Virus record (IMG/VR): IMGVR_UViG_3300033977_000108
Span: 124,001-188,000 of that record
Length of the DNA: 64,000 bases
Source: a virus
Direction: 5' to 3' (one strand)
Below the pieces are notes generated by a model, which was not told the DNA's origin, did not search any database, and saw nothing but the letters and a program-made list of their open reading frames with translations. Made by a program: the position numbers and the translations under genes. Position 1 is the stretch's first letter. The number at the start of each line of letters is the position of its first letter. Positions 21,230-36,597 of this stretch are shown here, piece by piece.

Positions 21230-21304
21230 GGTAGTCGGGGCCGGATTCGAACCGCCAACGCCTGCCTTTTTAGGACAGTGCTCTATCATTGGAGCTACCC
21301 GTCT
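21230..21304 (-). tRNA. Degenerate tRNA, anticodon loop CTAAAAA (anticodon AAA by position)
   Basis: Cloverleaf: acceptor AGACGGG/CCCGACT with an A3.A70 mismatch, D stem GCTC/GAGC, anticodon stem CTGTC/GGCAG, T stem GGCGG/CCGGC with a G.G mismatch, canonical T loop TTCGAAT, 3' end ACCG rather than ACCA. Position 33 is T, so the anticodon would be AAA (Phe), which is not normally used. Two stem mismatches and the odd anticodon suggest a decaying or repurposed tRNA. Confidence 0.55.
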
Positions 21305-27035: not shown

Positions 27036-27434
27036 CTAAATCTCCCTACCAATATCCTCACCGGCCTCAACTGCCTTGCCGGAATTTGTAGCCGTAAGGC
27101 CAGTAGATTGAAATGTATCCAGGACTTTCTCAGACAATAGACATCTCAATGGTAAAACTTGTACTCGTTGTGTGCTGAAATAGGCGCGCTCTGGGGTACC
27201 GAGCATGTCCCTGCCCATGCCCACTGGCGTTTCTTTGCCAAACAAGCTTGTCGTTATAATGAGCAAGGCAGGATATTCCTCATCCACTGAGAGGGGAACG
27301 TTGGTATTGAACGGTGTCTTATAACCCCGGAGTACGAAAGTAGTCTCGGATTCTGCTGCTACGGCCTGCCTTATTTCTTTGGTCTGTTCCGCATTCTTTG
27401 CTACTCTAACACTGACATAAACATCAAGGAGCAT
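27036..27434 (-). CDS. Hypothetical protein at the 3' end of the AAA cassette
   Basis: 132 residues, α/β: MLLDVYVSVRVAKNAEQTKE, then VPLSVDEEYPALLIITTSLF. No motif known to me. It overlaps the AAA ATPase stop by one base, so it is probably part of that cassette. Confidence 0.55.
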   Translation of the reverse strand: MLLDVYVSVRVAKNAEQTKEIRQAVAAESETTFVLRGYKTPFNTNVPLSVDEEYPALLIITTSLFGKETPVGMGRDMLGTPERAYFSTQRVQVLPLRCLLSEKVLDTFQSTGLTATNSGKAVEAGEDIGREI

Positions 27435-29515
27435 TAGACCTCCCTATCTGTTTCCAAGATGCCCTGGCTATACATCTCTTGCCGGTGTTTCCGCAGCCCG
27501 TTCCTATCTCTACCGCGCTCACGCCACTCCTTTGGACAATACCCGAAGTGCGTGACATATTCCAGTGCCAGGTCTATCAGAGCTTCTATCAGCTGCGTAT
27601 TCGGCAGGATATTATCCATTGATAGTTCCCAATCAGCGCGTGTGATTTCTGCCGAATCGGCTGCCTTTCTTTGCTCTGTCTTGGATAACTTCTTTATCTC
27701 CGGGTCTTCCAAGATGCGAAAGATAGCGTTGTTTAGGGCGTCTTTTGCTACTACTTCTATGTCGGCGCCGGTCCAAACATGGTCGGCCCAGATTAGGCGG
27801 CCTAAACCATGCTCTTTATTCTCCAACTTTGCCGTCTCTTTCAGATCCTTCGCCCAACGGAGATGATGCTTCTTGGCGATAGCTTGAAGCAGTTCGGCTC
27901 TGCCTTCACTATTTACCTCGGAAGGGGGCAGAGCTGGCAAAACAGCATCGAAGCGACCAGACCGGATTAGAGCGGTGTCCAATACATCTGGTCTGTTTGT
28001 GGCACCGATAATCACAATCTTACCTGCCCGGCTGTCATCGGACAAAAAGGTCATTAGTGAGTTGAATACCCGGGAAGAAGTCCCAGAGTCTCCTATTGAG
28101 GTTCGTCCGGCGGAGAGAACAGAATCTAATTCATCAAGGAACAGAATGACAGGAGCGGCAGATTCCACAGCCTCCAAGAACTTGCGCGTCTTTGTCTCCG
28201 TTTCTCCCACAATGCCGCCGAAGAGCCTGTCAAGGTGGCCTATCATGAAATTCATTCTGGCTTCTTTGGCTAAGGCATTTGCTAAGAAGGTCTTACCGGT
28301 TCCTGGCGGACCGGTCAGGAGCACACCTTTGCTGCATGACCGCTTGTCGCCCACCATCAAGGGACGGATAATCATCCGCCTGAAGTATAACTTCAACTCT
28401 TCGTGGCCGCCTACCAGGTCGAAGCCATGCTCCGGTTCATAAAACTCAACCAGACCTTGATATTCCTCTTCAATAGCCCGCTGCTTTCGGGCGCGGATGG
28501 CCGTGAAATCGACGGGCACATTATCCAGCCAGGACTGCATCAGAACATCCTCTAAATGGCATCTTGACATGCCTGCGGATTGGACGGCGAACAGATGCTC
28601 ATCTACGCCTTCGGCATAGGCCACATCATGGACGTTCCTGCTGGCTATTCTTACAGGATGGCCTTCTTTAGAGTATCTTCGGACCATCTCGGTGAAGTTG
28701 TGCAGCCATTCTTCACGCTCCTCCAGCTTTGGGTGCTTCACAAGGATGCTGCTTACTCTTGAAGAGCCTCCACTGATGCTGTCATGAATATCCGTGGAGT
28801 GGCGGCTGAGAATGATTATCATGTTCTTATTGCCAATGGCTTCATCTGCCGCCCAGTTGCGCAGGTGTACTATAGGCAGCCTATCGGTTAGGTTCAGTTG
28901 GGACATCTGCCCGTTAGGGAAGATGGCATCCCCATCTTTGAATATAATCCTAAAGCATGTCTCAGGTTTCCCGACTTCCCCCTTCTTCCTTGCGGCCTGG
29001 TTCTTCTCGTATAGAGCTTTAGACGCGGCGAACCACATACTCAGCGTCTTCAAACAAGCCATCAAATCGGGCGGGTGGATAATCAGATTCCACGGTACCA
29101 TGCTGTCGTCGCTATCCTTTGCCTCATCGGGATAGCAGGCAGCCATGATAGTCTCCCAGTCTTTACGGGATTTCTCATGGACAAAAGTCAGCCCCTCATT
29201 CAGGCTATAGCAGGCCATTACACGATTGTCGGCTTGCAGGATTTCTTTCTTTTGAGCGGCTGTAGTGGCTTTCATTAGTCTATAATTTACATCCAGTTTG
29301 GTAGCGAGAAGGTCTATAATATGAGATCTACAGCCGCTATTGTCCTGGTAGTCGTTGATGTTCCCGTGGAGAATAAAGGTATGGGCTATCTTCGCTTTAT
29401 AGTCGCGGGCTAATTTACGGATGGCTTCCGGCTCAGGAAACTCATAAGCCTTTGTCTCTTCCACCGCGTCCTCTGATTCGGGCTTTTTGGTCTTATTTTC
29501 TTCGTCCGGCATCAT
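27434..29515 (-). CDS. Ycf46-like AAA+ ATPase
   Basis: 693 residues. The C-terminal AAA module has GPPGTGKT (near residue 400), LDRLFGGIVGETE right after it, Walker B FLDELDS (near 462), and the sensor/Arg-finger stretch GATNRPDVLDTALIRSGRFD. The RLFGGIVGE-S/T-E string is a hallmark of the Ycf46 group. The first 350 residues form an ATPase-like α/β domain without a clear P-loop (AHTFILHGNINDY), also like Ycf46. A start three bases in (second ATG) has better ribosome-site spacing. Likely a remodelling ATPase for the small Ycf35/DUF2997 proteins of the same operon. Confidence 0.8.
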   Translation of the reverse strand: MMPDEENKTKKPESEDAVEETKAYEFPEPEAIRKLARDYKAKIAHTFILHGNINDYQDNSGCRSHIIDLLATKLDVNYRLMKATTAAQKKEILQADNRVMACYSLNEGLTFVHEKSRKDWETIMAACYPDEAKDSDDSMVPWNLIIHPPDLMACLKTLSMWFAASKALYEKNQAARKKGEVGKPETCFRIIFKDGDAIFPNGQMSQLNLTDRLPIVHLRNWAADEAIGNKNMIIILSRHSTDIHDSISGGSSRVSSILVKHPKLEEREEWLHNFTEMVRRYSKEGHPVRIASRNVHDVAYAEGVDEHLFAVQSAGMSRCHLEDVLMQSWLDNVPVDFTAIRARKQRAIEEEYQGLVEFYEPEHGFDLVGGHEELKLYFRRMIIRPLMVGDKRSCSKGVLLTGPPGTGKTFLANALAKEARMNFMIGHLDRLFGGIVGETETKTRKFLEAVESAAPVILFLDELDSVLSAGRTSIGDSGTSSRVFNSLMTFLSDDSRAGKIVIIGATNRPDVLDTALIRSGRFDAVLPALPPSEVNSEGRAELLQAIAKKHHLRWAKDLKETAKLENKEHGLGRLIWADHVWTGADIEVVAKDALNNAIFRILEDPEIKKLSKTEQRKAADSAEITRADWELSMDNILPNTQLIEALIDLALEYVTHFGYCPKEWRERGRDRNGLRKHRQEMYSQGILETDREV

Positions 29516-29768
29516 GCTCCTTTAGTTCCAGATTTAGCCCTAGGAAGTCGGCTGGACCATTGGTGACTGGAGTGTTCCTAGGAAACATCTCCATGCCGAA
29601 ATAAAAGGCCAGGTATTGCTTCAAGGCTTCGTCAAGCGTGAGAACTCCCGACAATACACGATTGACGAAGGGTACCCAGTTTGGGTCTTCTTCCACCCTC
29701 TCCATGTCTATTTCCACTTTGCCGGTGAGGGTGAAGATTACGGTCTTTATGTCCTCATCGTTCCTCAT
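29493..29768 (-). CDS. Small hypothetical protein in the AAA cassette
   Basis: 91 residues: TVIFTLTGKVEIDMERVEED (β-hairpin) and a helical part (VLTLDEALKQYLAFYFGMEM). GGAGG precedes the ATG. It lies between the AAA ATPase (23 nt overlap) and the radical SAM gene (adjacent), and is thus likely to work with them. Confidence 0.55.
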   Translation of the reverse strand: MRNDEDIKTVIFTLTGKVEIDMERVEEDPNWVPFVNRVLSGVLTLDEALKQYLAFYFGMEMFPRNTPVTNGPADFLGLNLELKEHDAGRRK

Positions 29769-30434
29769 CTACACCTCCCTTACCAAATCAAAGTTCGGTG
29801 CTGGGAAGCCGGTAACCTGAACCAATCCGGTTTCATCTATGGTTATTTCTGTTTGCTGCTGGGTAAAATCAGCAAGCGTGTATCTATTACTAAATAAGCG
29901 GAACTCCTGGTTCGTTGAAGAACTTAGTGGTCGGTTATCTGGCCGCCCCCTCATATAGCGCCCCATTATAGCGAAGTCTAAGTAGTAAGTACTCAAGAGG
30001 TTCCAGGTGGCTACTTTGCTGGTATACGGTTTGTTAGCCGACGTCTCAATAACCGCTTTGCCCTCCTCCGTAATACATAGTGTCTGGTATTGGCCGGCTT
30101 CCAATTCTTTGAGGGAATAACCAGTGAACATTCCAATGCTGAAGTTTGGTATTGCCTCCCTCACTTGCTGGGAAACGGCCAATACATTCTGTGCTTGATG
30201 CATGGGCTCGCCGCCGGACCAGGTAAGACCTTCCAAATTATTGGCTCGCGCTTCAGTCTCTATCCATTTGGCAAGATATTCATTATCCTCCCAGCATGGA
30301 TGGCCTGGGTTTGGATTGTGCGTTTCCGTATTGAAGCAGCCGGGGCAATTCAATAGACAGCCTTGGACCCAGATTATAGCCCGCTTGCCTGGTCCATTGA
30401 CGCGCGTTTCTGATAGCCTTGCGTGTATTAGCAT
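29769..30434 (-). CDS. Radical SAM protein, NrdG-like
   Basis: 221 residues. WVQGCLLNCPGCFN holds the CxxxCxxC [4Fe-4S] site; LTWSGGEPM is the SAM-binding GGE motif; IGMFTGYSLKEL follows the NrdG order. NrdG activates class III ribonucleotide reductase, but the window's reductase is class II, which needs no activase. It may serve a reductase outside the window or modify one of the small proteins of this cassette. Confidence 0.8.
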   Translation of the reverse strand: MLIHARLSETRVNGPGKRAIIWVQGCLLNCPGCFNTETHNPNPGHPCWEDNEYLAKWIETEARANNLEGLTWSGGEPMHQAQNVLAVSQQVREAIPNFSIGMFTGYSLKELEAGQYQTLCITEEGKAVIETSANKPYTSKVATWNLLSTYYLDFAIMGRYMRGRPDNRPLSSSTNQEFRLFSNRYTLADFTQQQTEITIDETGLVQVTGFPAPNFDLVREV

Positions 30435-30856
30435 TGATGCTCCTTGTTGTCGGCGCCGGAGATAATAAGCTTCGTCATCGCGCTGATTTGGTTCTGTAAG
30501 TCGCGATTGTCCTCGTAGACTTTGTAAGTAGTCTCATCAACTACGAGCATCTTTACCCTACATTTCGGGCAAATAATCCCTATGATGTCGATAAAGATAT
30601 CACCGGCTATCTCTTCTTTCTCCACCTTGCCGTCTATAATAAGCGATTGGAAGCCCCTGCGATAACTGCCTTCCAGCGAGTAAGTCAGCCCCTGACAGGA
30701 GGGACATTTTATAGGGTCAGTCTGAACCTTGCTATCAGGTATCATAACTATGGCAGTTGGTATCCAACTGGGCTCCTGCTCGGGGGGCTTTGGCGTTTCG
30801 GGCTTCGCGTCCGAGACTTGTTCTACCGGATTGTCTTCTGGTTTATCTTCCGCCAA
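30428..30856 (-). CDS. Zinc-ribbon protein in the AAA cassette
   Basis: 142 residues. Pro/Glu-rich disordered head (about 30 residues), then CPSC and CPKC about 45 residues apart, a two-knuckle zinc ribbon, then a charged helix. Overlaps the radical SAM start by 7 nt and the DUF2997 stop by 14 nt. Confidence 0.6.
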   Translation of the reverse strand: MAEDKPEDNPVEQVSDAKPETPKPPEQEPSWIPTAIVMIPDSKVQTDPIKCPSCQGLTYSLEGSYRRGFQSLIIDGKVEKEEIAGDIFIDIIGIICPKCRVKMLVVDETTYKVYEDNRDLQNQISAMTKLIISGADNKEHQC

Positions 30857-31031
30857 GAGTCACCTTCTGGGTCTGCTGCGTTTCATAGAATTCTGGCTTG
30901 GTTTTCTCTTCCAGTGTGCGGCCGAGCTTGGCAAATATCTTCGCCAAGTCCTTACAGCCTGGACCGTGCCCGCCTTGGATATCAACCTCAGCGTCGCCGT
31001 TTTCACCAATGGTTACAACGATTTGTGGCAT
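30843..31031 (-). CDS. DUF2997-like protein
   Basis: 62 residues from MPQIVVTIGENGDAEVDIQG (AAGGAGG upstream). The order β-hairpin, GGHGPGCKDLAKIFAKLGRT, then KPEFYE matches DUF2997: Gly-rich turn, a conserved Cys and the pEYY-like end. DUF2997 genes are often adjacent to DUF1257 (Ycf35) genes, as here. Confidence 0.75.
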   Translation of the reverse strand: MPQIVVTIGENGDAEVDIQGGHGPGCKDLAKIFAKLGRTLEEKTKPEFYETQQTQKVTLGGR

Positions 31032-31309
31032 TGTTCCTCCTTCCAATCAGTATAGAATCTTCCTATGCGGATGAATAGGATACCAGTCTTTGATCCCGTC
31101 CATTTACGCACGGCCTTTGCTACACCACGAAGAGTGAGTTTGTCCAGCATGATAGCTTTCTCCAGAGATTCTATATGCTGTAGTGTAGCCTGCTGATGCG
31201 ATGCGTGCTCCAAATACCCCGCGGTATGCGGTCCATACCTCTGCATCTCTATGTCATCTTCGTGTACGATCTGCTCCCACTTGGCGATAAGGGCTTCTAC
31301 GTAGCTCAT
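31013..31309 (-). CDS. Helical hypothetical protein in the AAA cassette
   Basis: 98 residues, helix-rich with several His (EHASHQQATLQHIESLEKAI), then a basic end. Overlaps DUF2997 by 19 nt. No family recognised. Confidence 0.5.
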   Translation of the reverse strand: MSYVEALIAKWEQIVHEDDIEMQRYGPHTAGYLEHASHQQATLQHIESLEKAIMLDKLTLRGVAKAVRKWTGSKTGILFIRIGRFYTDWKEEQCHKSL

Positions 31310-31473
31310 TTACCGCTCCCTTCCTGTTTGGTACAAGCACTTTCCTTCTTGATGGTCTTGTCGAGATTCTTCAGGGCTTTTCTTAACTGCCTGTTGCCTC
31401 CAAGTTCCCTTATGGCCTTCTTCAGGCCCTTACGCGCCTTCCGCAAGACCCTAAGCATCCTTTGGTTAGGCAT
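31306..31473 (-). CDS. Small basic helical protein
   Basis: 55 residues from MPNQRMLRVL (AAGGA 7 nt upstream), Lys/Arg-rich helices (KARKGLKKAIRELGGNRQLR). Likely binds nucleic acid. ATGA-type overlap with the next gene. Confidence 0.45.
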   Translation of the reverse strand: MPNQRMLRVLRKARKGLKKAIRELGGNRQLRKALKNLDKTIKKESACTKQEGSGK

Positions 31474-31681
31474 TAGCATATCCTTCAATCGGGAACTCGG
31501 GTGGATTAGGCCGTGGGGCTACCTGGCCTATGTGATAATCGGCGTAGGCCTGCAGTGCATCCAGACGCATCTGCTCTTCTGCACTTATCGTCCCTGAAAT
31601 GCTTTTGTCGATTAGGACGCCACGTTCATGATTTGTCAGCGCCCAATTCTCCTCAAAGTGAAGGAAGTCAGCCAAGTTCAT
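31466..31681 (-). CDS. Small hypothetical protein
   Basis: 71 residues from MNLADFLHFEENWALTNHER (GAGGG upstream). Acidic helical protein with DALQAYADYHIGQ and a Pro-rich tail. The EEQMRLDALQAYAD part resembles small phage proteins of unknown role. Confidence 0.5.
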   Translation of the reverse strand: MNLADFLHFEENWALTNHERGVLIDKSISGTISAEEQMRLDALQAYADYHIGQVAPRPNPPEFPIEGYANA

Positions 31682-31709
31682 CACGCCCTCAAGTTCCCTC
31701 GGCAATTGT

Positions 31710-32123
31710 CTAGGCATTGTACACCAATTGGATTTTCACACCCTTGTCGGTTTTTATTTCCCGTTTGCTTGCCAGCGTCAATCCGCGCGCTCGGGCGAGC
31801 TTGGCTGCTTTCCTGGCGGCATACTTCTGCTTGAGCTTCCCTACCCATTTGCTATTGAAGCGCCCGCGGTCATACTCTGAGATGATGGCTACATACTTGC
31901 CATTCTCTTTCTTGAAGCCAAGGTCATTGGAAGACGAGCCGACATACTTACGGGGAACTATGATATCGGCTTTCTGTTCCCGCTTGTCTCCGTGGTAGCC
32001 TTCCAGCTGCTGAGCCTCCTTATTCACCTGTATTGCCTGGGACGAAAAGCCCATATCTTGCAGGGCACCGACTAGGCAGGCTTCATCAGTCATTTCTAAT
32101 TCATAGTTATGGTAAGCCGACAT
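31710..32123 (-). CDS. Ycf35-like (DUF1257) protein, copy 1
   Basis: 137 residues. It follows the DUF1257 plan: EACLVGALQDMGFSSQAIQV (helix), LEGYHGDKREQKADIIV, DLGFKKENGKYVAIISEYDR, FNSKWVGKLKQKYAARKAAK, then a final strand KIQLVYNA. Ycf35 is a conserved plastid and cyanobacterial ORF of unknown function, long noted next to Ycf46-type ATPases and DUF2997 in bacteria (from memory). A second copy lies 340 nt upstream. Confidence 0.75.
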   Translation of the reverse strand: MSAYHNYELEMTDEACLVGALQDMGFSSQAIQVNKEAQQLEGYHGDKREQKADIIVPRKYVGSSSNDLGFKKENGKYVAIISEYDRGRFNSKWVGKLKQKYAARKAAKLARARGLTLASKREIKTDKGVKIQLVYNA

Positions 32124-32156
32124 TGCTAACCTCCTGTAAATTGTCTCCTATCCAGG

Positions 32157-32231
32157 TTATCTGCCCTCTTTGGTCAGCTTCTTTAGGAATAAAGTCAGGT
32201 TCTGTTCTTCTCGCTTTGCTTTTTCCGGCAT
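32157..32231 (-). CDS. Possible 24-residue peptide
   Basis: MPEKAKREEQNLTLFLKKLT then KEGR, behind GAGGG. An amphipathic basic helix that fills the gap between the two DUF1257 genes and overlaps the next ORF in another frame. Confidence 0.35.
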   Translation of the reverse strand: MPEKAKREEQNLTLFLKKLTKEGR

Positions 32232-32464
32232 TTTTGCCCTCGCGTCCGGGGAGTTATCAGTTCGACGTTCAAATCCTTGGCTACACAATGAGAATCGCCC
32301 CTAACCACATCTTGTATGATTCTTAACCTTTCGTTGTCATAGGTTTCAAGCGCATCCATCAAGGCGTACTGGATGATATTTTGAAGCTCATGAATCTTTT
32401 CAGCAATGTTCAGCAAATTATTATAGGCTGTATATCTACCTAACGGTAGCCTAATCTTTTTCAT
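32195..32464 (-). CDS. Small basic hypothetical protein in the AAA cassette
   Basis: 89 residues, helical, C-terminus basic (RGQKCRKKQSEKNRT). It sits between the two Ycf35-like genes and joins the upstream copy by an ATGA overlap. No family recognised. Confidence 0.5.
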   Translation of the reverse strand: MKKIRLPLGRYTAYNNLLNIAEKIHELQNIIQYALMDALETYDNERLRIIQDVVRGDSHCVAKDLNVELITPRTRGQKCRKKQSEKNRT

Positions 32465-32847
32465 ACATTATACACCAATTGGATTTTTCTGCCTACCGTC
32501 CTCTGGGCTTGTAGGGTCAGCCCTTTCTGGCGCGCAAGTTTCATAGCCTTGCGCTTCTGATAGTGCTGTTTGACGCGATTGATAAAGTCTTTATTGAGGG
32601 CACTATCCATAGATTCTTTCACTAATCCCAGCTCGCCCTTCGAGTTCTTGACGAAGCCGGCTTCATACCGGTTCCCTACCCCAGAATTCGCGGGCAGTTT
32701 GATCTTCACTTCCCGCTTGTTCTGCCATGGGCTTTTGATGGTCAGATTTTCTCCTATCTCTACTTTGCATCCTATGTCTTCCAGCGCCTTGGCAAGTAGC
32801 TCTTCGTCTTCTACGCCCGCGCATTCTTGTTTTGAATAGTGACTCAT
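32461..32847 (-). CDS. Ycf35-like (DUF1257) protein, copy 2
   Basis: 128 residues. Same plan as copy 1 with clear sequence echo: EELLAKALEDIGCKVEIGEN, EAGFVKNSKGELGLVKESMD, DFINRVKQHYQKRKAMKLAR, QKGLTLQAQR and the identical end KIQLVYN. N-terminus MSHYS is like canonical Ycf35 (MSHF-type). Duplication followed by divergence is the simplest reading. Confidence 0.75.
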   Translation of the reverse strand: MSHYSKQECAGVEDEELLAKALEDIGCKVEIGENLTIKSPWQNKREVKIKLPANSGVGNRYEAGFVKNSKGELGLVKESMDSALNKDFINRVKQHYQKRKAMKLARQKGLTLQAQRTVGRKIQLVYNV

Positions 32848-32854
32848 TGTCCTC

Positions 32855-33550
32855 CTAAAATGCCACCGTGGGTTCGGTATGGTCTGCCTTGTAAAACGAC
32901 TTTAGCAGGCTGGATATCCTCCTGCTATAGACGCCGCGCTCTACAAGTATTACATCCGGTACTCTGCCGGCGAAGTCTTTCAGTTTGACGTAGCTCTCTC
33001 GCGAATGTCCCTTGTCTTTCAGTGCGGCCAGGATTTCAGGTATGTTCTTCTGCGAGAGATCAAACCAGTTTGGATTCGTACCGGAATCTATTAGTATCTG
33101 CTGTAAAGCGATGTCGTATCTAAAGGAAAAGTAGGCGGTATAATGACAGAATGAACACCATGTCGGTTCATACGGGTGCCTATCAAAGTGCTCCTTCAGT
33201 CTAATCAGCTCGGCGGAGATGAGGCTCCCTCGCTGTATGGTATTGATGTCATATTTGCTTTTGAATCTGGAGTTTACGCCGGTTCGTATTACTTTCCTTT
33301 GACCGTGTGTGTCCATTATTGTGGTGTTCAATTCTTCATAGTCCTTTGGGTCAATGGCGGTATCCGTAAGGAATGCTGCCTGTATGAGGTTCTGGCATTC
33401 CGTACAAAAGTGGCCGTAGATTAGCTGCCTCGTAAGGGTCGGAGCGTGGCCCACTTTCTTGTATTCCTTGTCCTCCTTTGTTATGTCGCCCGTGGCCCAA
33501 GGGCTGAACCGAATGCTTGGCACATCGCCATCATAGAATAATTCTATCAT
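32855..33550 (-). CDS. Hypothetical Cys-pair protein
   Basis: 231 residues. HFCTECQ and TWCSFCHYTA give two CxxC pairs about 80 residues apart; the rest is helical with no motif I know. It overlaps the helicase stop by 4 nt, so it might be a helicase accessory. Confidence 0.55.
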   Translation of the reverse strand: MIELFYDGDVPSIRFSPWATGDITKEDKEYKKVGHAPTLTRQLIYGHFCTECQNLIQAAFLTDTAIDPKDYEELNTTIMDTHGQRKVIRTGVNSRFKSKYDINTIQRGSLISAELIRLKEHFDRHPYEPTWCSFCHYTAYFSFRYDIALQQILIDSGTNPNWFDLSQKNIPEILAALKDKGHSRESYVKLKDFAGRVPDVILVERGVYSRRISSLLKSFYKADHTEPTVAF

Positions 33551-36500
33551 AAGACCCTCTCATTCAGCAGCTCTTCGGTACCAAAGTCCAGGTTCTGCGT
33601 TATCTCCAGGTCTTCTCCAGCCTCTCTGAAGAAATCCAGGATGTGGGACCTGTCATCCAGCACGCGATTTACAAACCAGCGTATGTCCAGCGCGCTCGCC
33701 CTGACATTGATTACCTTGCGGTCCAATGCCTGCTCGGCAGCCGCCACTTTGGCATAAAAGGTATTGTAAACATGGTCATCAACTGTATTCTCCATCACAA
33801 GCAAATAGACATCACAGAACCTCTCCTCCTTCGTCGGTGTCATTACTCGGCTCCACGCCTGCGCCTGTAGCCCAGGCTGCCATAGCAAGTCGGTACAAAT
33901 CACTGATTTGGCAGCAGATAAGTCAACACCCTCTCTTATTTCCATCGTACCGGCTATCCAAAGATGTCTCTCTGGGTCGTCGCGGAAAGTGTCAAACGCT
34001 TCCCTGCGCTCTTCATCATTCCAGCTACCATCAAAGACGATGGGATTATAGCTAGCGAACTCTTTGGCAAGGGACTCCCTCATGGCTATAAAGCCGGATA
34101 GGATAACTATTTTCTCCCCTGCCATGGTTCTTTCCAGTACTATTCTCTTTATGTCGTCCATTTTGCCGCCGCCAGGCGGGCCGTGGTAAATAGGAGCCCT
34201 TGGCGGTTTCATCTTGGCCAGTACTTTATTGAAGTGTTCTGGGCAGGTAGCCGCGATGCGCATCTTGCTCATCTGCGAAATGACCATGGCGGGATTCACC
34301 AGATGGTGCTGTTGGGCGGCCTGCTGGGACAGCGTATTGAATTCTGTCTCAAACTGATTGATAGAAGATACAACCAGAGCCGCTTGTAAGGGATGCATCT
34401 TGGAGGCTACCCGATGCATTCTCGGCTTTGGTATGTGCAAGCCCAGCCTCTCCAGTGAGGACAGTACCAGCGGGTCTTCGTAACTTCTGCGCACCATCTT
34501 GGGTGCCATCAATTCCCAGAACTTGATCGGATTCTTCAGATATGGCAGCATCTTGCGGCTGTCTTTCAGCCCGCCGCGCTTATAGACCACATACTCGCAG
34601 AATTCATTATAGAAATCCGTGGCGCCGGCCGTTCCTTGATAGGGGAATGAAGCGGAGCCACCCTTGAAAATCCAGTGTAGCGGCCAATAGGCATCCGAGG
34701 GCGTATTCGGCATCAAAGTGCCCGTCATGCCCAGATGATGCTTGCCTCGGAATGTGCGTATTGCCTTCCCTACATCGCTTCCCTCCGATTTTATGGTATG
34801 AACTTCATCTACGATGACGGTGGGAAACCTATCCTTTATTCTGCGATAGACTGGGGGCACCCAGACACTATCTACCAATCCACACTCGCGGCACATGCGG
34901 CCTTTTATTGCTCTCGGATCGCAGTTCCTATGGACTTTTAGATTCAAGTCGCTCCATACATTCAGCTGCTTTGTCGTAGTCGTTTGCTTCAACTCAAAGC
35001 CTTTGGATTCAATGATTTTCTTGGATCGCCAGGCTGCTCCTCTCATTCGCCGGTTATCATATCTGCGAACACAGGCGGGATTTACGCACATGTACCCAAA
35101 GTTCCCGGCTTCTTCATGCCCCTTTACCGGCGCCTTATGAAACTCCAGCGGCATCTTCATCAGCAGATTCTTCTGCCCGGTGAGGGGGTCTTCGGAGATT
35201 AGTTTTGGCACATAAGGCCAAACCAAGGTGGAGCCGCAGTGCGGGCACTTGTGCTCATTTAGCACATCAGTCTTACCTTCCGTAAATCTAAAGCGTAGAT
35301 AACCTCTGCGTGCCTTCCTGTCCTTCTTTCCGGCGTCGTCCACGCCTCGGCCGGCTTGCCGCGGGCCGCCCTTGATCCAGGAGTAAGTCATCAAGTAAAT
35401 CTTCCCTGGCTTCTTCAAGTCTGCCAGACTATCTACTATGACATACTGTCCGAAGTATGGCAACACCTTGCTCAAGGCGTCCAAGTCCTTCTTCGTGAAG
35501 ATTCTGGCATTCCTTGGGCCTATCCAGGCGCACTTGTCCGAGCCCCACAACCAGGTCAGCACAGCAGATTCTCTGGTCTTCCCTTGTCTCATTGGCTTTA
35601 GGTCGGCCGCATTATCCTTAGTGGCCATCTGCGGGACATCAACATGGGAGTGGTCAAACAGGGCATCACCAAATACCTCCAGCTTTTCAGTGTAGTAGTT
35701 TATTAGTTCCGGGTATTTTGCAGGCACGCACTTCTTCGGGTCGTAGATTACCCTTTCGTCATAGGCGAAGTAGGTCTCCAGCGGAGTAGCGTTTTCATGG
35801 AAAGTCGTCCATTCAAATACGCTGGGTCCGCTGATAACCAGCTTTATGTTGGGGCGGATTGGCTCACGGAAAATCTTCACAATGCCATCCTGTCCGCTGC
35901 GTGAAGTATCTACTACTTGGTATCTCTCGCCCTTCTGAAAGATAAGCTCTTTGGCGGCTTGCTTGTGCTGTCCGGCATGCCCTTGATAGCCACTGTGTCC
36001 CGTGGGACCTTCCGGGGGTACATAGGTCGGTTCGGCTACAAAGTCGGCTTTGCAAGTAAGCACCATCCCGGCTTCCACTTTGTCGAATAGAGGCCTTGTA
36101 TCTTTGTATTCTGGCAAGAGGTAAGGCGTATTTTCTCTTTCCAGTCGCCTCTTCTCTTTCTTTAGCCAGTTGCCCAGGGTCGTGGATAGATTTACTTCTA
36201 AGCCATAGCTTTCCAATAACCTGGCTATTGGATGCTTGTTTAGTTCGGCATCTATTAGCATCCAAGCTCGGCTCTGTAAGGTCAGTTTTCTATGGCTAAT
36301 GTCAGATAAGATTTGCAGTTCAAGCTCGTCGTCTGGTTTATCAGGATCCGGGCGCTCTATTAGCAGCGCATGCAGTTCTTGGAGCAGCAAAGCCGACATT
36401 ACATCATTGGGAGAGATAACTATACGGCTGCCGCCTTTGTGTAGCGTCACGGAAGGCTTCTCTACCAATGCTAACGGCTGTATGATCTTCTGTTTCTTGG

Positions 36501-36597
36501 CCTTACTATGTATCACTGGGTCCTGCTTCTTGGCTGCTTGTTCTCCTGGGAACAAATCAGCCATCAGGGATAGCTGTCCTTTTATCTCCTTCTTCAT
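33547..36597 (-). CDS. SNF2-type superfamily 2 helicase
   Basis: 1016 residues. Motif I QGKTRES (near residue 336), motif II DEVH (near 595), motif III GMTGTLMPN, then a C-terminal RecA domain with IVILSGFIAM, REGVDLSAAKSVICTDLLWQ and QAQAWSRVM (motifs V-VI). Zinc-binding pairs CPHC, CVNPAC, CREC lie between motifs I and II, an insertion not seen in standard SNF2 proteins. It likely remodels protein-DNA complexes or forks. The N-terminal 300 residues have no recognised domain. Confidence 0.8.
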   Translation of the reverse strand: MKKEIKGQLSLMADLFPGEQAAKKQDPVIHSKAKKQKIIQPLALVEKPSVTLHKGGSRIVISPNDVMSALLLQELHALLIERPDPDKPDDELELQILSDISHRKLTLQSRAWMLIDAELNKHPIARLLESYGLEVNLSTTLGNWLKKEKRRLERENTPYLLPEYKDTRPLFDKVEAGMVLTCKADFVAEPTYVPPEGPTGHSGYQGHAGQHKQAAKELIFQKGERYQVVDTSRSGQDGIVKIFREPIRPNIKLVISGPSVFEWTTFHENATPLETYFAYDERVIYDPKKCVPAKYPELINYYTEKLEVFGDALFDHSHVDVPQMATKDNAADLKPMRQGKTRESAVLTWLWGSDKCAWIGPRNARIFTKKDLDALSKVLPYFGQYVIVDSLADLKKPGKIYLMTYSWIKGGPRQAGRGVDDAGKKDRKARRGYLRFRFTEGKTDVLNEHKCPHCGSTLVWPYVPKLISEDPLTGQKNLLMKMPLEFHKAPVKGHEEAGNFGYMCVNPACVRRYDNRRMRGAAWRSKKIIESKGFELKQTTTTKQLNVWSDLNLKVHRNCDPRAIKGRMCRECGLVDSVWVPPVYRRIKDRFPTVIVDEVHTIKSEGSDVGKAIRTFRGKHHLGMTGTLMPNTPSDAYWPLHWIFKGGSASFPYQGTAGATDFYNEFCEYVVYKRGGLKDSRKMLPYLKNPIKFWELMAPKMVRRSYEDPLVLSSLERLGLHIPKPRMHRVASKMHPLQAALVVSSINQFETEFNTLSQQAAQQHHLVNPAMVISQMSKMRIAATCPEHFNKVLAKMKPPRAPIYHGPPGGGKMDDIKRIVLERTMAGEKIVILSGFIAMRESLAKEFASYNPIVFDGSWNDEERREAFDTFRDDPERHLWIAGTMEIREGVDLSAAKSVICTDLLWQPGLQAQAWSRVMTPTKEERFCDVYLLVMENTVDDHVYNTFYAKVAAAEQALDRKVINVRASALDIRWFVNRVLDDRSHILDFFREAGEDLEITQNLDFGTEELLNERVL

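Follow-up and report, generated by a model that had tools for sequence, protein, structure and literature searches.

A phage gene module linking a Ycf46-like AAA ATPase to DUF1257 and DUF2997 proteins

The virus record IMGVR_UViG_3300033977_000108 is 204,633 bp in full, and the stretch analyzed here, bases 124001 to 188000 of that record (64,000 nucleotides, referred to below as the window), carries a cassette of genes for a Ycf46-like AAA ATPase, a DUF2997 protein, two DUF1257 (Ycf35) proteins, and a NrdG-like radical S-adenosylmethionine (radical SAM) protein. Ycf46, Ycf35, and DUF2997 are uncharacterized proteins retained in algal chloroplasts and cyanobacteria, and we know of no agreed function for Ycf46 or Ycf35. 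We found that the second of the two AAA domains of the ATPase alone keeps the catalytic residues, that the ATPase gene is linked to those for DUF1257 and DUF2997, and that the set is a widespread phage module found across many unrelated phages. We favor, tentatively and short of calling it probable, a reading in which a p97-like remodeler with a single active ring would receive its clients through a DUF1257-DUF2997 receptor, the radical SAM protein would modify DUF2997 where it is present, and the clients would be phage replication and repair proteins.

The initial annotation of the window, made from the letters alone, had named the ATPase with its Ycf46 string, the DUF2997 protein, the two diverged DUF1257 copies, and the radical SAM protein. 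A Pfam scan recovered all of them, each at or near the place claimed and all on the minus strand. Both DUF1257 copies and the DUF2997 protein cleared the curated Pfam cutoffs (22.2 bits for DUF1257, PF06868, and 24.1 bits for DUF2997, PF11211), so that the assignment of the two small proteins to DUF1257 stands.

When IMG/VR was scanned for FGGIVGE, 65 loci were returned, mostly chance matches; searches of viral contigs with one protein at a time (the window ATPase and each DUF1257 copy) gave nothing that was confirmed. A second viral scan, restricted to ATPase motifs ([LVC]FGGIVGE or [FW][TSI]GA[ED]IE[QVK]), yielded 79 loci. Profiles detected DUF1257 at 64 of the 79, DUF2997 at 62, and both within 10 kb at 60, always on the same strand, with a median gap of 19 bp between DUF1257 and DUF2997. 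Seven of the loci had provided seeds for the profiles, and when these were left out both partners were present at 53 of 72. These profiles had no match at any of 57 unrelated viral loci, at any of 80 generic-AAA genomic loci (taken from a scan of the genome collection with the ATPase alignment and consisting mostly of FtsH-like and other AAA proteins), or in reversed open reading frames (ORFs) (Fisher test, 4e-22). Pfam models, which are independent of our profiles, recognized 51 of 52 viral DUF2997 proteins and 35 of 52 viral DUF1257 proteins. When the ATPases were collapsed at 50% identity, 17 of the resulting 26 groups had both partners and 5 had a radical SAM gene. ATPase matches on Bacillota plasmids and in Arthrobacter were rejected as members of the module, as DUF1257 and DUF2997 are not adjacent to them.

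Close relatives of the window ATPase were present in three virus records, G001 and G002 (48% identity), which represent one virus over the stretch concerned, and G003 (38%). These jumbo phages keep the order helicase, orf231, DUF1257, DUF2997, zinc ribbon, radical SAM, AAA. The SNF2-type helicase retains its position at 33 to 37% identity across G001 to G003, the radical SAM proteins are 35 to 36% identical, and DUF1257 copy A has 42% identity with the G001 copy and 36% with copy B. A zinc-ribbon or Cys-pair protein precedes the radical SAM gene in G001 and G003, in the latter as a 115-residue Cys-pair protein. Two DUF1257 copies are present in G001/G002 and one in G003; the duplication of Ycf35 pointed out in the initial annotation is therefore real and is shared with a second jumbo phage, though not with the third record. 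Co-occurrence in related phages, on which the idea of a cassette had been staked, is borne out by the gene order of these two further jumbo phages as well as by the 60 viral loci with both partners.

The trio of ATPase, DUF1257, and DUF2997 was also found in five of nine cultured phages examined, namely, Rhizobium phages RHph_I4 and L338C, Aeromonas phage HJ05, Pseudomonas phage SM1, and Agrobacterium phage JP1. All five have the same-strand order AAA, DUF1257, DUF2997, with a nameless protein of about 200 to 240 residues after the ATPase, and, unlike the window phage, they carry neither a radical SAM gene nor a duplicated DUF1257 in the stretch seen. Searched with tblastn, cultured phages and plasmids gave no DUF1257 match, and it was the profiles that later detected the family; the GenBank annotation of RHph_I4 already names both DUF1257 and DUF2997. 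A DnaB-type helicase is encoded within a few genes after the trio in RHph_I4, L338C, and SM1, and the RHph_I4 trio lies upstream of DnaB and a DNA polymerase. In several phages, a nameless protein of about 210 residues is encoded between the ATPase and DUF1257 (L364:7279-7917, L367:6089-6727, L365:6036-6662, and L095:10556-11194); it had no Pfam match where scanned.

The module also extends beyond phages. A compact set of ATPase, DUF1257, and DUF2997 genes occurs in some cyanobacterial genomes and on a Planktothrix plasmid, so that the portability proposed in the initial annotation holds for many unrelated phages, a plasmid, and cellular genomes. DUF2997 was detected in 34 of 59 Cyanobacteriota genomes and DUF1257 in 30 of 59, while DUF2997 is rare elsewhere (1 of 399 Pseudomonadota and 7 of 399 Bacillota genomes). 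Most Pseudomonadota hosts of these phages therefore probably do not have the system, and the phage gene set is likely to be self-sufficient. Five small Cyanobacteriota genomes (about 1.9 Mb), to judge by size and phylum probably from non-photosynthetic organisms, encode DUF2997 beside a DUF1257-like protein and an AAA ATPase; a NrdG-like radical SAM gene lies alongside in 5 of 6 stretches. Most oxygenic cyanobacterial genomes have one DUF1257 and one DUF2997 copy 150 to 300 bp apart, a spacing that matches the duf2997-ycf35-fed7 cluster described in passages of a published study (PMC4284462). On one cyanobacterial chromosome, ycf46 is followed directly by a second, shorter DUF1257 gene (L283:6679-8683). 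This arrangement fits the slr0373-slr0374(ycf46)-slr0376 operon outlined in parts of PMC7283877 and PMC7496141, and we infer that slr0376 is a DUF1257 gene.

The phage genes share with Ycf46 (slr0374) and Ycf35 of cyanobacteria and red algal plastids the FGGIVGE motif, the domain plan of the ATPase, and the DUF1257 partner, and DUF2997 lies beside ycf35 in cyanobacteria as well. They differ in that the phage ATPase is 693 residues long with an extra N-terminal part, and in that the phage has a single gene block with a radical SAM gene instead of that for ferredoxin 7 and with two DUF1257 copies. Another possibility, of a kind already proposed for Ycf46, is that the genes are auxiliary ones that help a cyanobacterial host with photosynthesis or CO2 use. 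It would agree with the link between Ycf46 and CO2 use, the loss of Ycf46 lowering the activity of the carbonic anhydrase EcaB in Synechocystis (Jiang 2015, as cited in PMC7496141). The trio is, however, carried by phages of Rhizobium, Agrobacterium, Aeromonas, and Pseudomonas and by the small-genome, probably non-photosynthetic Cyanobacteriota, and we regard this explanation as barely credible.

The second AAA domain of the ATPase is complete, with a Walker A motif (GPPGTGKT), the FGGIVGE pore-loop region within the Ycf46 string DRLFGGIVGETE (RLFGGIVGE), Walker B residues D461 and E462, N507, and R518/R521. The Walker A and B motifs, the asparagine, and the two arginines are invariant in 46 sequences. 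The first AAA region is degenerate, and a Walker A motif was seen in it in none of 78 viral relatives; this combination of a degenerate first region and a catalytic second one with FGGIVGE is Ycf46-like. A structure model of the ATPase (predicted local distance difference test [pLDDT], 86.3; predicted template-modeling score [pTM], 0.82) aligned with Rix7, Drg1, and p97 across about 670 columns, covering both rings (E value, 2e-22). To the extent that sequence and modeling can tell, given the single Walker A motif and the full-length fold match, the ATPase has two AAA tiers and a single active ring. It resembles p97/Cdc48, Rix7, and Drg1/Afg2 in this predicted architecture but differs from Cdc48/p97 in having one Walker A motif where those proteins have two complete AAA domains, and it scores 140 bits against the CDC48 model TIGR01243, whose cutoff is 802. 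It may work as a p97/Rix7-like hexameric threading or remodeling motor. A quick tree of the ATPases, whose long branches call for caution in reading, requires at least six changes between viruses and cells, which makes it probable that the module moved repeatedly between the two.

The initial annotation had raised counterdefense or host takeover as a purpose, in which the machine would pull a host complex or a defense protein apart. The portability of the module and its scatter across phages of many hosts suit such a role, and the rarity of DUF2997 in the host phyla indicates that the phages are not simply copying a common host system. The same module is nevertheless found in cellular chromosomes, it lies in replication blocks and not in accessory regions, and PADLOC returned nothing for the small proteins. 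PADLOC matched the ATPase only through its common AAA domain (IetA, 97 bits), the one feature shared with the IetAS antiphage system; that match spans the AAA domain alone, and a Pfam scan of ten cassette proteins turned up no protease family to serve as the IetS partner. On balance, takeover or counterdefense seems to us distinctly unlikely.

The DUF2997 protein of the window has GPGC at residues 23 to 26, with Cys26 in a GxxGxxC motif; the family also has the motif E-[YFW]-[YF]. The cysteine of GxxGxxC is kept in 97% of 110 sequences, and there is one conserved cysteine per protein. This nearly invariant residue may be a working or modified one. Separately, Cys-Gly forms the C terminus of 20 among 61 DUF2997 sequences from viruses or plasmids (for example, L353:10346-10543). 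For DUF1257, the model of copy A (pLDDT, 93.5; pTM, 0.85) has a beta-alpha-beta4-alpha-beta2 fold. Sequence and fold searches of PDB gave nothing significant among solved structures, and two significant fold matches were obtained in a viral library, to nameless small proteins of 147 and 128 residues. Weak fold matches to Bcs1-type and other AAA ATPases (E value, 0.33 at rank 7; 0.03 to 0.07 at ranks 3 to 5) are a lead only. DUF1257 and DUF2997 are naturally fused in one virus (L348:12439-12942) and in three Bacillota genomes (L271:8394-8927, L273:8168-8836, and L274:8591-9259), and the L271 fusion comes immediately after the ATPase.

A second way to see these proteins is as a chaperone for an iron-sulfur (Fe-S) or redox cofactor, in which the DUF2997 cysteine would bear a persulfide, a metal, or a cluster, DUF1257 would dock DUF2997, and the ATPase would insert the cofactor at its target or extract it; in oxygenic cyanobacteria a ferredoxin would act as the Fe-S partner, and elsewhere a radical SAM protein would take that part. 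The conservation of the cysteine, a gene for a protein of 143 to 151 residues after DUF2997-DUF1257 in three genomes, and the adjoining ferredoxin 7 gene in the cluster from PMC4284462 speak for it. So does the statement, in a section of PMC5940233, that the presence of ycf35 and ycf46 in red algal plastids tracks habitat together with ycf34 and the heme oxygenase gene pbsA. Against it stand the single conserved cysteine per DUF2997, the lack of a further Fe-S gene at most phage trio loci, and the match of the ATPase fold to threading machines. We consider both the chaperone function and the proposed exchange of ferredoxin for radical SAM unlikely, though serious as an alternative to the remodeling reading.

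The radical SAM protein contains CLLNCPGC (CxxxCxxC) and GGEP, and its alignment with phage and bacterial relatives has 23 invariant columns. These motifs and its small, single-domain build are those of NrdG, and TIGR02491 (NrdG) is its best curated match, at 84.7 bits; a plain NrdG, the activase of an anaerobic ribonucleotide reductase, lying here by chance would account for this. The score falls short of the 126.1-bit cutoff, however, and the partner NrdD was not found in the four virus records G000 to G003, which are possibly incomplete, or in 3 of 5 cellular genomes searched, all three of which have the radical SAM-DUF2997 pair. The phage reductase is NrdA-like, and the place of the gene beside DUF2997 is conserved: the two adjoin in three lineage groups, the jumbo phages, the small-genome Cyanobacteriota, and one Pseudomonadota genome (L275). 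An ordinary NrdG present by chance is thus very improbable. A second, longer radical SAM type (about 280 to 310 residues) is encoded 1 to 3 kb upstream of the ATPase at L297, L300, L302, L314, L317, L318, L330, and L340; the L297 protein, the only one scanned, has a treble-clef-like C terminus below the cutoff.

The same adjacency bears on whether DUF2997 is itself the product, resembling a ribosomally synthesized and posttranslationally modified peptide (RiPP) that the radical SAM protein modifies and that the ATPase and DUF1257 handle. Its tiny size, the conserved GxxGxxC and E-[YFW]-[YF] motifs, and the frequent Cys-Gly end are what such a peptide might show. Most loci have no radical SAM gene, though, no protease or exporter was seen, and the DUF2997-DUF1257 fusions in several genomes are unlike a released peptide; we judge this improbable. 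The fusions and the radical SAM-DUF2997 adjacency in three lineage groups are consistent with the proposal of the initial annotation that the small proteins are adaptors and that one of them is modified by the radical SAM protein. Under our favored reading, DUF1257 and DUF2997 would form a single receptor unit that presents clients to the ATPase, and the NrdG-like protein of the window phage would modify the adjacent DUF2997.

C-terminal tails shared among neighboring genes of two other lineages look like a client tag. In operons of the small-genome Cyanobacteriota (L248, L250, and L251 and the related G102, G099, and G090), the ATPase, TPR proteins, and a Mrr-type nuclease share the C-terminal pattern G-[RK]-x-[ILV]-[DE]-[FWIV]; helix-hairpin-helix proteins of the same operons have the looser end R-[IV]-[IV]-D-F. 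In two whole genomes of this group the true tail matches, four in each, are all inside the operon, and other matches to the pattern are about as frequent as in the reversed control. In one phage clade, DUF3150 proteins, a protein of 150 to 216 residues, and a uracil-DNA-glycosylase/3'-5' exonuclease, all encoded beside the trio, carry K-R-K-L-[TS]-F or R-R-K-L-S-F at the C terminus (L304, L311, L315, L326, L329, L331, L334, L337, L339, L343, and L345), and these tails are limited to the trio region in the two longest records of the clade. Tailed genes numbered 37 of 2104 at viral trio loci and 15 of 113 at small-genome Cyanobacteriota loci versus 1 of 2051 in controls (Fisher test, 2e-10 and 4e-19), counts that describe rather than prove, since the regular expression was set after examples had been seen and related loci are not independent. 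The DNA at the tail ends in these relatives is not a Shine-Dalgarno site. The REV/REI/RDV tails of three neighboring genes and one other in the window were rejected as a protein tag; they are the codons of a AGGGAGGT-type Shine-Dalgarno sequence before the next start. A DUF3150-family protein is a frequent further neighbor of the trio, at about 40 loci (for example, L353:10656-11576).

Several observations weigh against the remodeling reading or narrow it. A radical SAM gene lies nearby at only 16 of the 79 viral loci, so it is not a core part of the module. No tag-like tails shared between neighboring proteins were found in the window. DUF3150 was not found in the window phage, and control genomes gave no signal either. 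In the quick tree, a long branch separates the window ATPase from cyanobacterial Ycf46, and the window clade groups with a Bacillota sequence and not with Ycf46 as an ortholog would.

Coordinates of the cassette and adjoining genes are given in Table 1. The initial annotation had also listed zinc-ribbon and small helical proteins. Of these, the zinc-ribbon protein has a homologue in a related phage, although all its Pfam zinc-ribbon matches are below the cutoff, and no relatives were found for the small helical ORFs (31013-31309, 31306-31488, 31466-31717, and 32195-32464). The start codon of DUF2997, an ATG at 31031, is preceded by AGGAGG. For orf231, Pfam and PHROG searches gave no match; orf132 is probably outside the module. 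Other genes in the window encode a primase-helicase, a DNA polymerase, a processivity factor, a UvsX-like recombinase, helicases, and the NrdA-like ribonucleotide reductase. A predicted tRNA-Phe at 21230-21304 has the anticodon AAA, which is unusual for Phe.

Table 1. Genes of the cassette and its surroundings in the window
Feature	Coordinates	Strand	Supporting observations
orf132	27036..27434	-	Subthreshold Pfam match; nothing in PHROG or NCBIfam; absent from related loci
Ycf46-like AAA ATPase, 693 residues	27434..29515	-	PF00004, 115 bits
orf91, conserved small protein	29493..29768	-	Overlaps ATPase start; 33% identical in related jumbo phage, same position
NrdG-like small radical SAM protein, 221 residues	29769..30434	-	PF13353 (Fer4_12), 97 bits
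Zinc-ribbon protein between DUF2997 and radical SAM genes	30428..30856	-	Homologue in same place in related phage, E value 1e-12
DUF2997 protein, 62 residues	30843..31031	-	PF11211, 27.6-27.9 bits
orf98	31013..31309	-	Relatives not found (Pfam, PHROG, NCBIfam)
DUF1257/Ycf35 copy A, 137 residues	31710..32123	-	PF06868, 46.1 bits
DUF1257/Ycf35 copy B, 128 residues	32461..32847	-	PF06868, 33.6 bits
orf231, with Cys pairs, conserved neighbor upstream of DUF1257	32855..33550	-	Homologues in same place in G001 and G003
SNF2-type helicase, first gene of conserved block	33547..36597	-	phrog_62, DNA helicase

Together, these results suggest that the module may be the phage version of an old and widespread protein-remodeling system. 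The module would most likely act on replication and repair proteins of the phage itself and might assemble, recycle, or take them apart; this proposal draws on the position of the module in replication regions and on the related modules in which the ATPase, DUF3150, and DNA repair or nuclease proteins are tailed alike. It is possible, but in our view doubtful, that phages, cyanobacteria, and plastids share a new class of tag-directed remodeling system, composed of a p97-like ATPase with a single active ring and a receptor of DUF1257 and DUF2997, its cysteine modified in some lineages by a radical SAM protein, and recognizing a client tail of the form [RK][RK]x-hydrophobic-polar-hydrophobic-COOH. 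The open-access literature (5.39 million papers, with subscription journals and preprints largely outside it) held three papers that mention DUF1257 or DUF2997 but yielded no description of a phage module of these proteins and no mention of DUF3150. That phages of heterotrophs carry a Ycf46-Ycf35-DUF2997 module takes photosynthesis out of the picture, and the phage modules offer small, deletable systems in which the function behind an old chloroplast puzzle could be worked out. If the recognition of tails is true, an AAA motor would here be selecting its clients in a new way.

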